This document shows, in pieces, positions 29,943-37,163 of a stretch of DNA of 42,508 bases. Origin of the DNA: a virus. The translations under genes were made by a program, and so were the position numbers. Each line of letters opens with the position of its first letter. The stretch's first letter is position 1. The stretch lies in IMG/VR virus record IMGVR_UViG_3300031963_000320, positions 1-42,508 of that record. One strand, 5' to 3'. Below the pieces are notes generated by a model that saw nothing but the letters and a program-made list of their open reading frames with translations, was not told the origin of the DNA and ran no database searches.

Positions 29943-30860
29943 CTAATACAGTACTGGGTTTATAATCCCATATCCTTCATATTCTCTCTTACCAGCGTAT
30001 CTTTCATTTTTCAGTTTCGTTGTATTTTTCTTGAATAAATTTATGTAGTCTTGTTTATTTTTAAGTTGTACTTTTCTATGTTGTTTGTTATAGGATAATG
30101 CCAAACTAGCACAACCAACAACAAATGGATTAGCCATACTGGTTCCACTCATTACTGCATAAGTATTATCTGGTACACAACTCATTATATCCTGTCCAGG
30201 TGCTAAAAAATCTAATTCTTCTCCTTTGCAAGTAAAATCTGACCTATCAAAAAATCTATTTATTGAACCTATTGCTATTGTTTCATCATATCTTGCTGGA
30301 TACATTATTGGACTATTTATTCCGCTATTGCCAGCAGCACAAAAAATAACACAACCCTTATTAATAGCATATAAAATGCTATTATATAGATCTATTGAAT
30401 GATCTGGTGAGCCTAAAGACATAGCAATAAAATCACAATTATTATCAGCAGCAAATTGAACTCCTTTAGCAATTATTTTATTATTTCCACTACCATCACC
30501 ATTAAGGGCTTTAATTGGTAATATTTTACTTTTTGGTGCTATGCCAACAATTCCTAACCCATTATTTTCTGCTGCAATAGTTCCAGCAACATGAGTACCA
30601 TGACCATTATCATCAATTGGATCTTTCTTAGGATTAATTAAATTAATACCTTGTATTAAATTATTTTTTAAATCTGGATGATCAATATCGCAACCTGTGT
30701 CTATTACTGCGATCCTTACGTTATCTCCGTCACTTTTATTCCATAATTTATCAATATTAAATTTAGTTATTTCCCATCCTAATATTTGACACTTATCAGG
30801 GGATAATCCATATATATTTTCTCTATAAAATGGCAATAAAGAACAATCATTTTTTTTCAT
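29943..30860 (-). CDS. Subtilisin-like (S8) serine protease
   Basis: 305 residues with the complete S8 catalytic set: IAVIDTGCDIDHPDL (D54), DDNGHGTHVAGTIAAENN (H87), AAGNSG (oxyanion N178) and SGTSMANPFVVG (S241). No signal peptide or propeptide is seen, so it would act inside the cell or on the virion; an N-terminal extension of about 40 residues precedes the domain. It overlaps the trypsin-like gene by 14 bases and is probably co-expressed with it from the motif at 31620. The target is unknown. Confidence 0.92.
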   Translation of the reverse strand: MKKNDCSLLPFYRENIYGLSPDKCQILGWEITKFNIDKLWNKSDGDNVRIAVIDTGCDIDHPDLKNNLIQGINLINPKKDPIDDNGHGTHVAGTIAAENNGLGIVGIAPKSKILPIKALNGDGSGNNKIIAKGVQFAADNNCDFIAMSLGSPDHSIDLYNSILYAINKGCVIFCAAGNSGINSPIMYPARYDETIAIGSINRFFDRSDFTCKGEELDFLAPGQDIMSCVPDNTYAVMSGTSMANPFVVGCASLALSYNKQHRKVQLKNKQDYINLFKKNTTKLKNERYAGKREYEGYGIINPVLY

Positions 30861-31596
30861 ATCTATTCTCTATTATCCATGATCTAAATTTAGATATTCT
30901 GGTATGTCCGCTCTCGTCTGTGAATGTTGAGTCTGGTTTCTTGTCTATAGCCATCACGCAGGAATTGATACCAGCGAGTTTGCCGTCAATAAATAAACCT
31001 CCTCCACTGTCACCGCTAGCAATTAAAAACTCCAGACTGGTATGATTTTTGGATCCTTTGCGTGTTGGTGTGCAAATTAATAAATCTTTATTTATTTCAT
31101 CAATTTTATTATATCCTGCTCGTCTTTTATTATCAGATTGTTTTGCCCCAGTATTAAAAGTTCCATATATTCCAAACCCAGATATAGAGCATAATTTACC
31201 AATTTCATCTTCTTGTTCATACAAGGATGGATAAAAATTCATATTAAAAGATATATCAGAATGACCAATTGCTATATCACACAAACCAAAAGTAGAACTA
31301 AATTCTGGATGTATTATCATTTTTTCAATAATAATGGATTTATCATCTATATTAATAGTTAATGTTTTATAATTTTTGACAACATGAGCAGCAGTTAAAA
31401 AATTATGATTATCTATCAATACCGCCGATGCACAAAATGGAGTATTATCTTTATATAAACCACATAATTTTACAACATATTTAAATTGTGATCCATACTC
31501 TAGATATTTAGAATCATTATTTTCTGGATCTATAGTACCAGCGATACATATACAAGATAAAACTATAGATAGTAATAATATTATCAAGGGTTTCAT
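30847..31596 (-). CDS. Secreted trypsin-like (S1) serine protease
   Basis: 249 residues. N-terminal MKPLIILLLSIVLSCICIAG is a signal peptide; VLSC could be a lipobox (C15). The chymotrypsin-type triad is intact: LTAAHVV (H71), LCDIAIG (D107) and ASGDSGGGLF (S197). C45 and C55 could form the usual disulfide near the active site. It would be exported to the periplasm or attached to the envelope, unlike the cytoplasmic subtilisin-like product of the next gene. AGGG lies 6 bases before the ATG. Confidence 0.88.
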   Translation of the reverse strand: MKPLIILLLSIVLSCICIAGTIDPENNDSKYLEYGSQFKYVVKLCGLYKDNTPFCASAVLIDNHNFLTAAHVVKNYKTLTINIDDKSIIIEKMIIHPEFSSTFGLCDIAIGHSDISFNMNFYPSLYEQEDEIGKLCSISGFGIYGTFNTGAKQSDNKRRAGYNKIDEINKDLLICTPTRKGSKNHTSLEFLIASGDSGGGLFIDGKLAGINSCVMAIDKKPDSTFTDESGHTRISKFRSWIIENRYEKK

Positions 31597-33007: not shown

Positions 33008-33406
33008 CTAATTAAGTATATCAAATAGTCCTTGATAATAGACTGGTTGTTCTACAAAGTGTTTAGCGTGCGCTTGTAGATGTAATCTATATTCATTATT
33101 TATTGGATCAGATACGAAATATTTCTTTTTCCATATTGGACTACCCTGATAATTGGATCCCAAATACTGGAAGGAATTACCCTTCTCAGTATTGGAGTTC
33201 CAACTATTCACAGGAAACGACACAAAAGGAAAGCCAGGGATAGCAACATCTGATAGGGAATAATATAAGTCTATATCTTTAAAAAGATTATTGATTTGAT
33301 CTATATCAAACTTAAAATAGAACTTGTATGGGTCATATTGATCATTATAATCATAATTATATTGATCATCATCATACTCATCATCTTCATCATATGGTTC
33401 GTTCAT
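33008..33406 (-). CDS. Hypothetical protein with acidic, tyrosine-rich N-terminus
   Basis: 132 residues. The first 27 residues (MNEPYDEDDEYDDDQYNYDY...) are an Asp/Tyr-rich tail very like the C-terminal end of the rIIB-like protein upstream (DPYEDDEDYNDQY). The rest (FKDIDLYYSLSDVAIPGFPF...) is unassigned. AAGG lies about 8 bases before the ATG. The tRNA-like element lies directly between it and rIIB. Confidence 0.65.
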   Translation of the reverse strand: MNEPYDEDDEYDDDQYNYDYNDQYDPYKFYFKFDIDQINNLFKDIDLYYSLSDVAIPGFPFVSFPVNSWNSNTEKGNSFQYLGSNYQGSPIWKKKYFVSDPINNEYRLHLQAHAKHFVEQPVYYQGLFDILN

Positions 33407-33419
33407 ATTAAAATCCTTA

Positions 33420-33485
33420 AAAGTGAGGATGGAATCGAACCATCCAACGAGCCATACGGCACGTTACTCGTCCACAAGCCCACTT
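33420..33485 (-). tRNA. tRNA-like element with noncanonical D/anticodon half
   Basis: The acceptor stem AAGTGGG/CTCACTT pairs over 7 bp (one G-T wobble) and a perfect T arm GATGG-TTCGATT-CCATC follows the tRNA consensus. But positions 8-48 hold only 34 bases instead of about 41, and contain no 5-bp stem with a 7-base loop. That stretch folds instead as one hairpin: either GACGAGT/GGCTCGT-type pairing with a 13-base loop, or AACG-T-GCC/GGC-T-CGTT with a GTAT loop. No anticodon can be assigned and no CCA is encoded. It is either a decayed tRNA or a reduced tRNA mimic. A 26-codon GTG frame with GGAGG upstream also crosses it and ends in ATGA with the next gene. Confidence 0.5.
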
Positions 33486-33492
33486 TACCTCC

Positions 33493-33519
33493 AACGATCA
33501 ATAATTAATACTGATCGTT
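33493..33519 (-). other. 8-bp perfect inverted repeat at the rIIB stop
   Basis: AACGATCA / TGATCGTT with an 11-base loop containing the rIIB stop codon. No T-run follows, so it is not a standard terminator. It could mark an RNA processing point between the rIIB message and the tRNA-like element, or protect the 3' end. Confidence 0.45.
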
Positions 33520-34380
33520 ATAGTCCTCGTCATCTTCGTAAGGATCATAATCATCGTCATCATCTTCATCATCAAACTGATCCCAATAAGATTCATCTAC
33601 ATCATAATCTTCGTCATCATATTCCTCTTCATGTTCATCATAACTAAAATTAGATGAATAAAGAGGCTTGAGTAGTTCGCCTTGATACTCTCCGACCACT
33701 TCATATCGGCAAGTGCGAAGTTTCTCACAGTTGCAATCACTTGGTACACTAACAACATCACGCGGATTAATCTTTACGATAACAATACGATCACCACTTT
33801 CAACACTACCATAGCCAGCAACATAATTCAATGCACCAGCATGAAGTCCATCAGAACAACCTCTTGCACGATCATCGTCAACCTTTGCTCTCTGCATCTT
33901 AACTACCTGACCAACACTGTTATCAAATACGCCACGATACTTATCCTTAAAGTCCCCCCTTACTGCTTTATAGGCCAAGAAATGACCATCCTCAGTAACA
34001 GGTAGATGTTCATGCTCAAGAAAATCATAGAGTTCTTTTTGACTCTGCATACTAGGATTTTCCATAAGATTATTTAGAAAATTAACAAGAGGCTGAAATG
34101 GCAGACCCTTGCTCATAAACTCTAGAATACGCTTACTAATGCTACCATGAACAACTTCACCTTCATAAGTAACTTGACCATCCTTGATCTCAACTAGACC
34201 ATCACTAAATGTAGCCACTGCCTTCTGAATATCTACAACCTTCAACAGTTCTTCCTCTGTAGCAGTAGGTAGGATATCGATAATCATCTTATAATTGAGA
34301 TGATCTGGTAGAACCTGATAACTCTTATTATTAAGTACCAGCGTAAGATTACCATCAACAAACATAAACGGAACGCTCAT
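33505..34380 (-). CDS. rIIB: rIIB-like protein
   Basis: 291 residues. The central region matches rIIB-like proteins of large aquatic phages: NFLNNLMENPSMQSQKELYD, FLEHEHLPVTEDGHFLAYKA, DNSVGQVVKMQRAKVDDDRA, and IVIVKINPRDVVSVPSDCNC, then RYEVVGEYQG. The last 45 residues are extremely acidic and tyrosine-rich (e.g. QFDDEDDDDDYDPYEDDEDY). In T4, rIIA and rIIB are membrane-associated early proteins that guard against prophage-encoded exclusion. AGGAG precedes the ATG, and rIIA is immediately upstream, as in T4. Confidence 0.85.
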   Translation of the reverse strand: MSVPFMFVDGNLTLVLNNKSYQVLPDHLNYKMIIDILPTATEEELLKVVDIQKAVATFSDGLVEIKDGQVTYEGEVVHGSISKRILEFMSKGLPFQPLVNFLNNLMENPSMQSQKELYDFLEHEHLPVTEDGHFLAYKAVRGDFKDKYRGVFDNSVGQVVKMQRAKVDDDRARGCSDGLHAGALNYVAGYGSVESGDRIVIVKINPRDVVSVPSDCNCEKLRTCRYEVVGEYQGELLKPLYSSNFSYDEHEEEYDDEDYDVDESYWDQFDDEDDDDDYDPYEDDEDYNDQY

Positions 34381-34415: not shown

Positions 34416-37088
34416 TTACTTAATCAAACTGCTCAACTGAATTCTGAACAAATCAACATTGTTATCATTCATCTGACTTAGCCAATCGTTATTATTAGAA
34501 TAATAACTACGAGTAGCACTGTTCAAATTAGAGATTGGATTTTTATTATTCAGTTCTCTAAGTTGACCAGTTACCCTATGAGTTCCCATAATATACTTGA
34601 TCATCGGGTTGTTGTCAACCTCAACCTTAATCATTTTTCTCAAATCTGACAACCTATCTAGACTGTGCTTGATCTTGTTGGTATCAGACTTAAATTGATT
34701 AATATAAGGTTCTGAAGTAGTATATAATACATTAAGCATACCGATTAGACTATTATATTCAATATTAGTGGAACGAATAGTCTTACTGTTAATAGTAGAG
34801 ATGCCAATATTATTAAGCAGATCATTGATGTGCTTAAAATAGTCCTCGCTCTTGAATATATTAATATCATACTTATTCATATGAACAGTATTGCTAAAGT
34901 AGTCCATAATAATATACGAATCAATAGCCTTGACCATATTGGTATTCTTGATGAACTTCTTATATTCAAGACCAAAGATATTTAACATATGATAGGCGAA
35001 TTGGTGAACAATATCACCTTCACTATACCAATTATATGAAACATTTTTATCTTTATCGTTAAATTCTTTACGACAAAATTCTACAACAGTATTGTAACCA
35101 GCAATATCTTCAAAACGATCTTTGACAACATTCTTGAGTTTATTTTTCAAAAAATCATTGAACAGAATTAGATTCTTTTCATCTTTTAGAATCTTGACAG
35201 TACTAGATTTAATAGCATATATCTTAGTGTCGCCAATCATATCTTTAATTAGATTTGATAGAAATTCATTTGCGAATAGACTATTGATAGATTCAAGATT
35301 CGGTAGTTCCTCATTAGCAAAAGTGCTATCACTTTGATAACGGAGAATAGGAACATATACGATATCATCCTCATCATCAAAAGAATCTAGTTCGTCTTGT
35401 GTTAGTGTCTTTAGGTATCTAGCATCATTGTATGGGTTGCTAATCGCCCCACTATCTTTAGATGCCCCATGAATAAAAAATACGTCTTGATCACTAACTC
35501 TGCCATTACTAGAACGAGAAGTAATGTTTCGTGGACTATTACTCTTGATCAAGTCCTTAAATTCTGAAATCTTAACGATATTTTCGGCACCAACATCAGC
35601 AATTAGATCCTCAAAACCTTTATTTGAATCATTGATATTCTTGCTATCAATCATTAGATAAGCAAAACAATCATTATCATTACAATAGCGAATAGCAATC
35701 TTCTTTGCAGTTTCTTCGCTCTTTACGTCGCAAACAAAAAATGTGAGTTTACCTGTTTTACGAGAACCATAATAATATTCTCCTTTACCAGAAAGAGTAT
35801 TGATATGGATACTATTAGTCAGATAAACCATTCGTCTTGAACGATACCCAGCGGTTCTATAATTAATAGCATACAAATTTTTGTTAGCAGCAAATTTATA
35901 TTCTAGATCATGCCCGGTATTAATATCATGTGACTTACCCTTGGCGTCTGTCCATGTAGCACCAACACCCCAACCACCAGCAAGATCATTCATAGCATAA
36001 TAAGTCTGAATTGCCTCGACCTTGGTTTTAGCACCAGCAATTTTCTTACTGAATTCTTCCTTCATTTCCATGTAGATATCTTGAGTCTTACTACGAAGTG
36101 CCTTAATAACATCCTTCGTATACTGTAGACCCTCACGACTTACATCCATTTCAAGTTCACCAATATCAAAATCAAGTTCTAGATAAAGATTCTGGTTAAG
36201 AATTTCTGACACGAAGTTCTTCCAGTTATCAATGTCTGCCTTGCCAAATGCCCTATTCCATTTTTGGATATGGTCTGATTGTTCAGCCTTTTGCTCGCCA
36301 ATCAATTGAGATACTACAACAGGATATGCAATATTCCCCATCAATGCAATAACACCACTATCAATATGATGATGAACATTTGGAAACTTATTTGTATCAT
36401 TACTCAAACGACATACTCTCCAACCATCACCACTAATAACAATATTCTTATTGCTATAAGCATGATCCTTGAGAGATGGATTAACTCCACCCTCAATAAT
36501 TGGCTTCATCTTAAAATAGTGGAAAATACGAATAGCCTTGCTACTAAACTCATTAAAATCATATTGCTTTACAGCAAAACTAATTTCAAGACCATTAGCC
36601 TCATTTGTGTCAGAAATATTGAACAGATTTAGTGCTGGAACACCGTTATCATCAATAGATGCAACATAAGTATACTTTTTGCCATTAAAATAAGAAGCAG
36701 TTGTAAAACTCTTGGTATAAGCAAAAGGACTCTTAGAACCTAGACCAAGACAACCAACAAAATCATTGCTATCATTCTTATTAGAAGCACCATATGTTGT
36801 ATAAAGGTTCTCCATATCGGCTTGACTAAGACCAGTACCATAATCACGCACGCTAAAATTAGGATTAGCAGCAGTAGGCAGAGTAACCTTAAAAGGGTTC
36901 TTATTTCCCGCACTAATATGACTGTCATAAGCATTAGTAGACAGTTCACGAATAACCGCCATCACTTTATCTGAATACAGTGAATCAGACAAAATCTTAA
37001 ACATTTTACTGGTTTGTGCAATTGTAAAACCCGATGCACTACGAACACCAGAACTATGAGTATCAATAACTCTATCTGCCAACTTCAT
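34416..37088 (-). CDS. rIIA: rIIA-like protein with GHKL ATPase domain
   Basis: 890 residues. The N-terminal GHKL/Bergerat fold is plain: IRELSTNAYDSH (E48, N52), VRDYGTGLS (D82, G84, G86) and GCLGLGSKSPFAYTKSF (residues 112-128). This matches T4 rIIA-type proteins, which have a histidine-kinase/Hsp90-like ATP site. The long remainder is alpha/beta and specific to this family. It is driven by a strong sigma70-like promoter 47 bases upstream and has GGAG 8 bases before the ATG. Codon use is less AT-biased than in the virion genes. It probably acts with rIIB. Confidence 0.9.
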   Translation of the reverse strand: MKLADRVIDTHSSGVRSASGFTIAQTSKMFKILSDSLYSDKVMAVIRELSTNAYDSHISAGNKNPFKVTLPTAANPNFSVRDYGTGLSQADMENLYTTYGASNKNDSNDFVGCLGLGSKSPFAYTKSFTTASYFNGKKYTYVASIDDNGVPALNLFNISDTNEANGLEISFAVKQYDFNEFSSKAIRIFHYFKMKPIIEGGVNPSLKDHAYSNKNIVISGDGWRVCRLSNDTNKFPNVHHHIDSGVIALMGNIAYPVVVSQLIGEQKAEQSDHIQKWNRAFGKADIDNWKNFVSEILNQNLYLELDFDIGELEMDVSREGLQYTKDVIKALRSKTQDIYMEMKEEFSKKIAGAKTKVEAIQTYYAMNDLAGGWGVGATWTDAKGKSHDINTGHDLEYKFAANKNLYAINYRTAGYRSRRMVYLTNSIHINTLSGKGEYYYGSRKTGKLTFFVCDVKSEETAKKIAIRYCNDNDCFAYLMIDSKNINDSNKGFEDLIADVGAENIVKISEFKDLIKSNSPRNITSRSSNGRVSDQDVFFIHGASKDSGAISNPYNDARYLKTLTQDELDSFDDEDDIVYVPILRYQSDSTFANEELPNLESINSLFANEFLSNLIKDMIGDTKIYAIKSSTVKILKDEKNLILFNDFLKNKLKNVVKDRFEDIAGYNTVVEFCRKEFNDKDKNVSYNWYSEGDIVHQFAYHMLNIFGLEYKKFIKNTNMVKAIDSYIIMDYFSNTVHMNKYDINIFKSEDYFKHINDLLNNIGISTINSKTIRSTNIEYNSLIGMLNVLYTTSEPYINQFKSDTNKIKHSLDRLSDLRKMIKVEVDNNPMIKYIMGTHRVTGQLRELNNKNPISNLNSATRSYYSNNNDWLSQMNDNNVDLFRIQLSSLIK

Positions 37089-37134: not shown

Positions 37135-37163
37135 AGTATACCATCGGCAAACCCGCTTGTCAA
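37135..37163 (-). promoter_or_regulatory. Strong sigma70-like promoter of rIIA
   Basis: Minus-strand TTGACA (37158-37163), exactly 17 bases, TATACT (37135-37140). The predicted leader is about 40 bases and carries the GGAG ribosome-binding site. Likely an early promoter read by host polymerase. Confidence 0.8.

Follow-up and report, generated by a model that had tools for sequence, protein, structure and literature searches.

The tRNA-like element downstream of rIIB

The sequence analysed here, referred to throughout as the window, is a 42.5-kb fragment (42,508 nt) of an uncultured large phage (IMG/VR record IMGVR_UViG_3300031963_000320). On its minus strand the order is rIIA, rIIB, an 18-nt spacer, a tRNA-like element, AAGGA and a 132-aa gene (Table 1). 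Acidic Asp/Glu/Tyr-rich repeats flank the element on both sides, at the rIIB end (33505-33560) and at the start of the next gene (33360-33406). An extended -10 sigma-70-like promoter, TTGACA-17-TATACT, is found at 37135-37163 (-), 47 nt before rIIA. Elsewhere in the window (29943-31596, minus strand), adjacent protease genes, a subtilase (S8) and a trypsin-like enzyme, lie beside a RuvB-like helicase gene.

Table 1. Positions in the window of the tRNA-like element, its parts and the neighbouring genes
Feature	Position	Strand	Basis
Whole tRNA-like element, 67 nt, four-way mini-cloverleaf; RNA AAAGUGGG CUUG-UGGA-CGAG U AACG-U-GCC-GUAU-GGC-U-CGUU G GAUGG-UUCGAUU-CCAUC CUCACUUU	33420..33486	(-)	sequence, fold, covariance-model match
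Acceptor stem, 5′ strand, AAAGUGGG	33479..33486	(-)	covariation
Mini-D arm, CUUG-UGGA-CGAG, abutting the acceptor	33467..33478	(-)	family-wide UGG loop, covariation
Middle ("anticodon") arm, AACG-U-GCC-GUAU-GGC-U-CGUU	33446..33465	(-)	three compensatory changes in L246
T arm, GAUGG-UUCGAUU-CCAUC	33428..33444	(-)	covariation, T-loop conservation
Acceptor stem, 3′ strand, CUCACUUU, no encoded CCA	33420..33427	(-)	sequence, covariation
Four-U run at 3′ edge of element	33419..33422	(-)	sequence
Shine-Dalgarno-like AAGGA of next gene, directly 3′ of element	33414..33418	(-)	sequence
rIIB, stop codon 18 nt upstream of element	33505..34380	(-)	PHROG 609, E 5e-73
rIIA	34416..37088	(-)	PHROG 612, E 6e-111
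132-aa gene, function unassigned, acidic N terminus, starts 13 nt past element	33008..33406	(-)	

A sequence-only reading of this stretch had described an intact acceptor and T arm on either side of a 34-nt half with room for neither a normal D arm nor an anticodon arm. The intact arms were confirmed on the minus strand at 33420-33485 as 13 contiguous pairs, comprising an 8-bp acceptor stem and a 5-bp T stem with the loop UUCGAUU; if the acceptor is counted as 7 bp, exactly 34 nt separate it from the T arm. An acceptor and a 5-bp T stem with a UUCRA loop are hallmarks of tRNA. The D hairpin has 4 bp and a UGGA loop, and the middle arm has 7 bp, a U.U mismatch and a tetraloop in place of the usual 5-bp stem and 7-nt anticodon loop. 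The minimum free energy structure (RNAfold) is a four-way cloverleaf of -25.4 kcal/mol (z = -2.9 vs. 200 shuffles). Its central part consists of two hairpins, the mini-D arm GCUUG-UGGA-CGAGU and the middle arm, rather than the one hairpin that had been proposed, as forcing a single ACGAG/CUCGU hairpin gives a structure about 4 kcal/mol worse. The D stem is backed by covariation across the family described below. In the middle arm, L246 differs from the window by three C-G to U-A double changes that retain the U.U mismatch, a comparison of four sequences that is modest by itself.

ARAGORN called no tRNA at the window element, and no Rfam family matched there. A covariance model built with neither the window sequence nor its subtype matched the window at 33420-33485 with 33.6 bits; its only other match in the window was a tRNA-Leu gene, at 24.3 bits.

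Conservation and genomic occurrence

The carriers of the element form a large set of uncultured phages. Among relatives with an rIIB at least 70% identical, it is present in 118 of 122 distinct rIIB 3′ contexts (~97%), a count that combines 117 automatic parses, including L227, in which the parse was wrong and the element present, with L188, in which it lies past an inserted gene. The insertion in L188 (280-1030) is an HNH endonuclease-like gene between rIIB and an intact element. The four contexts from which the element is absent are L234, L267, L278 and L281. In a set of eighty close rIIB relatives, all 79 with enough sequence have the acceptor/T-arm element a few bases past the rIIB stop codon. 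ARAGORN, run on 162 loci, gave no tRNA call at this position, and a normal tRNA follows rIIB in none of the relatives.

The element is absent from rIIB phages at or below 66% rIIB identity, cultured phages included; the cultured phages L163-L168 have no such element, and some of them carry plain terminator-like hairpins. BLASTN searches of the element against cultured phages returned chance matches only, and no match above 26.9 bits was obtained with the model in 24 outgroup records. As to the host, one metagenome-assembled genome labelled Chitinophagia contains a relative, possibly through mis-binning.

Association with rIIB was also recovered by pattern-only scans that made no use of rIIB. 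All 85 matches fell directly after this gene, 83 as identified by tblastn and two at contig starts with a visible rIIB tail. With model R2, 27 of 30 long contigs (up to 238 kb) gave one outstanding match per genome, always at the rIIB end, and the other three (L278, L281, L211) are element-less. Many weaker R2 matches are tRNA genes; of eight others that were read, three are tRNAs and five are chance-like. A general role as a genome-wide punctuation mark was rejected on the basis of the single strong match per genome, at rIIB.

The sequence-only reading had placed the element between rIIB and a gene whose acidic start is like the rIIB tail. That resemblance is real, but the element is also retained where another gene lies downstream. 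A function as the leader of the next gene was rejected for the same reason, as the downstream gene is the 132-aa gene in some relatives and a RepB-primase-like gene (MFSDxLGFNPFD; weak Pfam match, E 0.07) in others. In many loci, among them L013, L018, L034 and L250, another conserved hairpin, UUG-N5-GAUAGCA-GAGG-UUGCUGUC-C-CAA, occurs with compensatory variants directly after the element, and lies between it and the optional RepB-primase-like gene.

Two further observations concern tRNA-like sequences elsewhere in these phages. Odd tRNA-like genes near tRNA-Pyl/Leu in L173, L178, L180, L205 and L206 share the D arm AGUC-UGGU-GACU and are ARAGORN-negative. In L042 (440-625), a group I intron (Rfam RF00028, 55 bits) is located upstream of rIIA, apparently within a tRNA-Leu gene, and a similar stretch is found in L036.

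Constant and variable parts

Across 98 distinct parses the element varies in total length from 46 to 107 nt. The T loop is UUCGAUU, UUCGAUC or UUCGACU in 97 of them, and the one exception, TTCGATA, comes from the wrong parse of L227, in which the actual loop is UUCGAUC; UGG is present within the D loop in 90. What is constant across the family is UUCGA in the T loop together with GG in the D hairpin, corresponding to the tRNA elbow, while the acceptor sequence and the middle arm vary freely. The first base of the acceptor is mostly A, not G.

The middle, 2-45 nt in single elements, may be a 2-nt linker (L253, L217, L223), a 13-nt linker (the CCGC type), a 3-6 bp hairpin (L189, L182, L108) or a long arm of up to more than 10 bp, with three-way or tetraloop/long-arm folds and no 7-nt anticodon loop on a 5-bp stem. 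A UAGUU-like motif is common to several middle arms. Double elements were observed in L155 (2590-2700) and L230 (2085-2189), where a single acceptor encloses, within its middle arm, a second T arm and then a second D arm.

Selection on an RNA structure

Model R1, which was built from 15 AGUC-type sequences only, also recovers the other element types, including that of the window. Sequences were aligned with a covariance model started from one subtype; an all-type MAFFT alignment was dropped, as it misplaced the 5′ acceptor strand. Across the 81 elements aligned, standard pairs occupy 95.4% of pair cells, compared with 69.2% in shuffles and 42-54% when pairing partners were slid; these counts lean toward structure, as the alignment is fitted to the model, and the slid controls and an independent parse agree with them. 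Comparison with relatives for compensatory changes, which had been suggested as a check, revealed two-sided changes in 14 of 16 pairs (7/7 acceptor, 4/4 D and 3/5 T), in addition to the three in the middle arm of L246. G-U or U-G cells number 71 and A-C or C-A cells 10, an excess that places the constraint on RNA of the rIIB strand. These data show that selection acts on the element as an RNA structure of the rIIB strand.

Allele exchange at a module boundary

In a quick rIIB tree, element-bearing phages fall in one clade (96% SH-aLRT), which also includes the four element-less rows. Presence of the element requires 3 changes on this tree and architecture type 32, a number inflated by many weakly supported forks. 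Two single cases are unambiguous. L031 and L022 are 100% identical over the first 700 nt of rIIB and carry different element types, and L012 and L013 have the element in common and differ in everything past its 3′ end. Together with the tree they show that the element is stably kept, that its alleles are exchanged, and that the site lies on a module boundary.

The sequence-only reading had left three possibilities, a decayed tRNA, a recombination scar or a functional tRNA mimic, and its interpretation as a whole is partly supported. The last gains support from occurrence in 118 of 122 relatives, strong covariation, invariant elbow bases and the sense-strand G-U bias. A scar is not an adequate identity for an RNA structure under selection, although the site itself is a recombination junction, with types swapped behind identical rIIB sequences and gene content that switches exactly at the 3′ end.

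Comparison with known RNAs

The layout of the element matches that of mammalian mascRNA and menRNA, of MALAT1 and NEAT1. In its crystal structure, mascRNA has a 7-bp acceptor, an 11-nt D arm, a 15-nt middle arm, a 17-nt T arm, no linkers and two essential G residues in the D loop (PMC11693755). Both RNAs are without linker bases and combine a small D arm, in which two G are essential, with a compact loop on the middle arm; both are cleaved by RNase P and RNase Z (PMC11693755). Features in common with the phage element are the 7-bp acceptor, an 11-12 nt GG-bearing D arm that abuts it, absence of linkers, a middle arm with no anticodon loop, the 17-nt T arm, absence of an encoded CCA, and a position at the 3′ end of a longer transcript. 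In contrast, the phage element sits between protein genes of an operon, its middle arm ranges from absent to more than 10 bp, and its processing is predicted. The Rfam mascRNA-menRNA model gave no match at E ≤ 10 for the window or at E ≤ 5 for 14 relatives. The element thus resembles mascRNA in plan, and in the absence of a sequence match membership of that family cannot be claimed.

The tRNA-like domain of tmRNA likewise has an acceptor, a T arm, a reduced D arm with GG and no anticodon; the phage element has no tag frame, pseudoknots or conserved G3.U70 (the pair equivalent to this tmRNA/alanine-identity feature is G-U in only 12 of 80) and is not a separate gene. Phage tRNA genes share the acceptor and T arm, and in some phages the same AGUC-UGGN-GACU D arm, whereas the element has no anticodon arm or linkers, is missed by ARAGORN and is sub-threshold for Rfam tRNA where tested. 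The best such scores among the relatives were 25.4 bits (L047) and 27.2 bits, against an RF00005 gathering score of 29. RNase P substrates within mRNAs (T4 gene 32, polycistronic operon mRNAs) and C4 antisense RNA also represent tRNA-like stretches in bacterial or phage transcripts; those are single biochemical cases, whereas the phage element is a conserved one-locus family recognized from covariation, with cleavage predicted. An intrinsic terminator shares the helix followed by a U run at an operon boundary, and differs in that the element has a branched tRNA fold, a short and variable U run and an ORF immediately downstream.

No Rfam family exceeded threshold for the window element or for those of the 14 relatives, the highest score being tRNA at 25.4 bits, and we found no report of a comparable phage element in the literature searched, coverage of which was partial. 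Conserved covarying tRNA mimics within phage protein-coding operons are absent from Rfam in recognizable form.

A predicted processing tag in the rIIA-rIIB message

The explanation we prefer, with confidence and doubt about evenly balanced, is that the element is a tRNA mimic embedded in the rIIA-rIIB mRNA and processed by tRNA-maturation enzymes. It would be transcribed as part of the rIIA-rIIB message. Sigma-70-like matches just upstream of the element are at background level, with no promoter enrichment, which makes co-transcription with rIIB likely; a promoter of its own is not favoured for the same reason. The 5′ side would then be cut by an enzyme of general tRNA maturation, for which host RNase P is the likeliest candidate, and RNase Z or exonucleases might act at the 3′ side. 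Cleavage just past the rIIB stop codon would define where the rIIA-rIIB mRNA ends and would also free the mRNA of the next gene with its own Shine-Dalgarno sequence, with a small stable RNA as a by-product or second product. The partner is expected to be a general maturation enzyme because the constant part is the acceptor-T stack and elbow, with no acceptor or anticodon identity. These are the features read by RNase P, RNase Z and the CCA enzyme, and none is of a kind that would select a particular synthetase or codon. The elbow is read by both RNase P and RNase Z (PMC4810234), and RNase P also cleaves mRNAs, first that of T4 gene 32, and a polycistronic mRNA (PMC11143913).

Several features fit a processing tag less well. 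Absence of an encoded CCA and a mostly A-initial acceptor are not ideal for bacterial RNase P, general punctuation might recur elsewhere and the element is single-copy, the 3′ U run fits a terminator too, and a tag for processing alone would not lead one to expect frequent type swapping. A more far-reaching proposal, which we offer tentatively, is that large phages arrived independently at an RNA of the mascRNA type. This conserved tRNA mimic without an anticodon would bring host tRNA-maturation enzymes to the end of the rII message, and the trading of its interchangeable alleles between phages would make it a counter-defence or regulatory RNA rather than solely a cut site.

A terminator and/or 3′ stabiliser of the rIIA-rIIB message is a rather unlikely explanation. 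The A-rich 5′ and U-rich 3′ strands of the acceptor helix would stop transcription or block 3′ exonucleases, and the tRNA fold would serve fast folding and nuclease resistance. A T run of at least 4 is found in 87 of 98 elements, the site is the only terminator-like one on the minus strand in 10 kb (scanned as a stem followed by at least 5 T in 8 bases), and a plain hairpin with a U run occupies the same place in some outgroup phages, for example L211, L163 and L164. However, the next ORF often begins 10-20 nt on, too close to leave room for a promoter, so it would be silenced if termination were efficient. The length of the U run ranges from 1 to 7, with the run nearly absent in L182, whereas constancy lies in the elbow bases, which have no bearing on termination. 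T-rich trailers are also present on tRNA genes of the same phages.

It is unlikely, in our estimation, that the element functions as a trans-acting small RNA, a released mimic of the tRNA top half that would occupy a host or defence factor recognizing the elbow or CCA end. The rII genes are known counter-defence genes, and about 30 type exchanges with stable presence are what would be expected of an arms-race locus; L031 and L022, with their 700 identical rIIB bases, carry different types. Swapping can also be explained by neutral recombination at a module boundary; moreover, there is no conserved acceptor or discriminator identity, with the G3.U70-like pair being G-U so rarely, and no anticodon to draw anticodon nucleases.

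A DNA-level recombination junction or attachment-like site, in which tRNA-like sequence is kept as short homology, appears very improbable. It would account for the switch in gene content exactly at the 3′ end of the element (L012, L013) and for the HNH gene between rIIB and the element in L188, but stems that change freely with compensation, together with a 7:1 preference for G-U over A-C, point to single-stranded RNA of one strand. Decay of a former tRNA gene, which the sequence-only reading had itself tied to relatives with a normal tRNA at this site, is refuted despite the tRNA resemblance and the same short D arm in tRNAs of other phages, because the abnormal structure is conserved clade-wide, with covariation and with no such relative, and we give it almost no weight.

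If the element is indeed processed by RNase P, as the preferred explanation predicts, mRNA-end formation by the tRNA machinery in the manner of MALAT1 would have arisen in phages too, and the family would provide a natural 46-107 nt series of how little tRNA suffices. With it, the classic rII locus, which is still poorly understood, gains an RNA component that had not been suspected.
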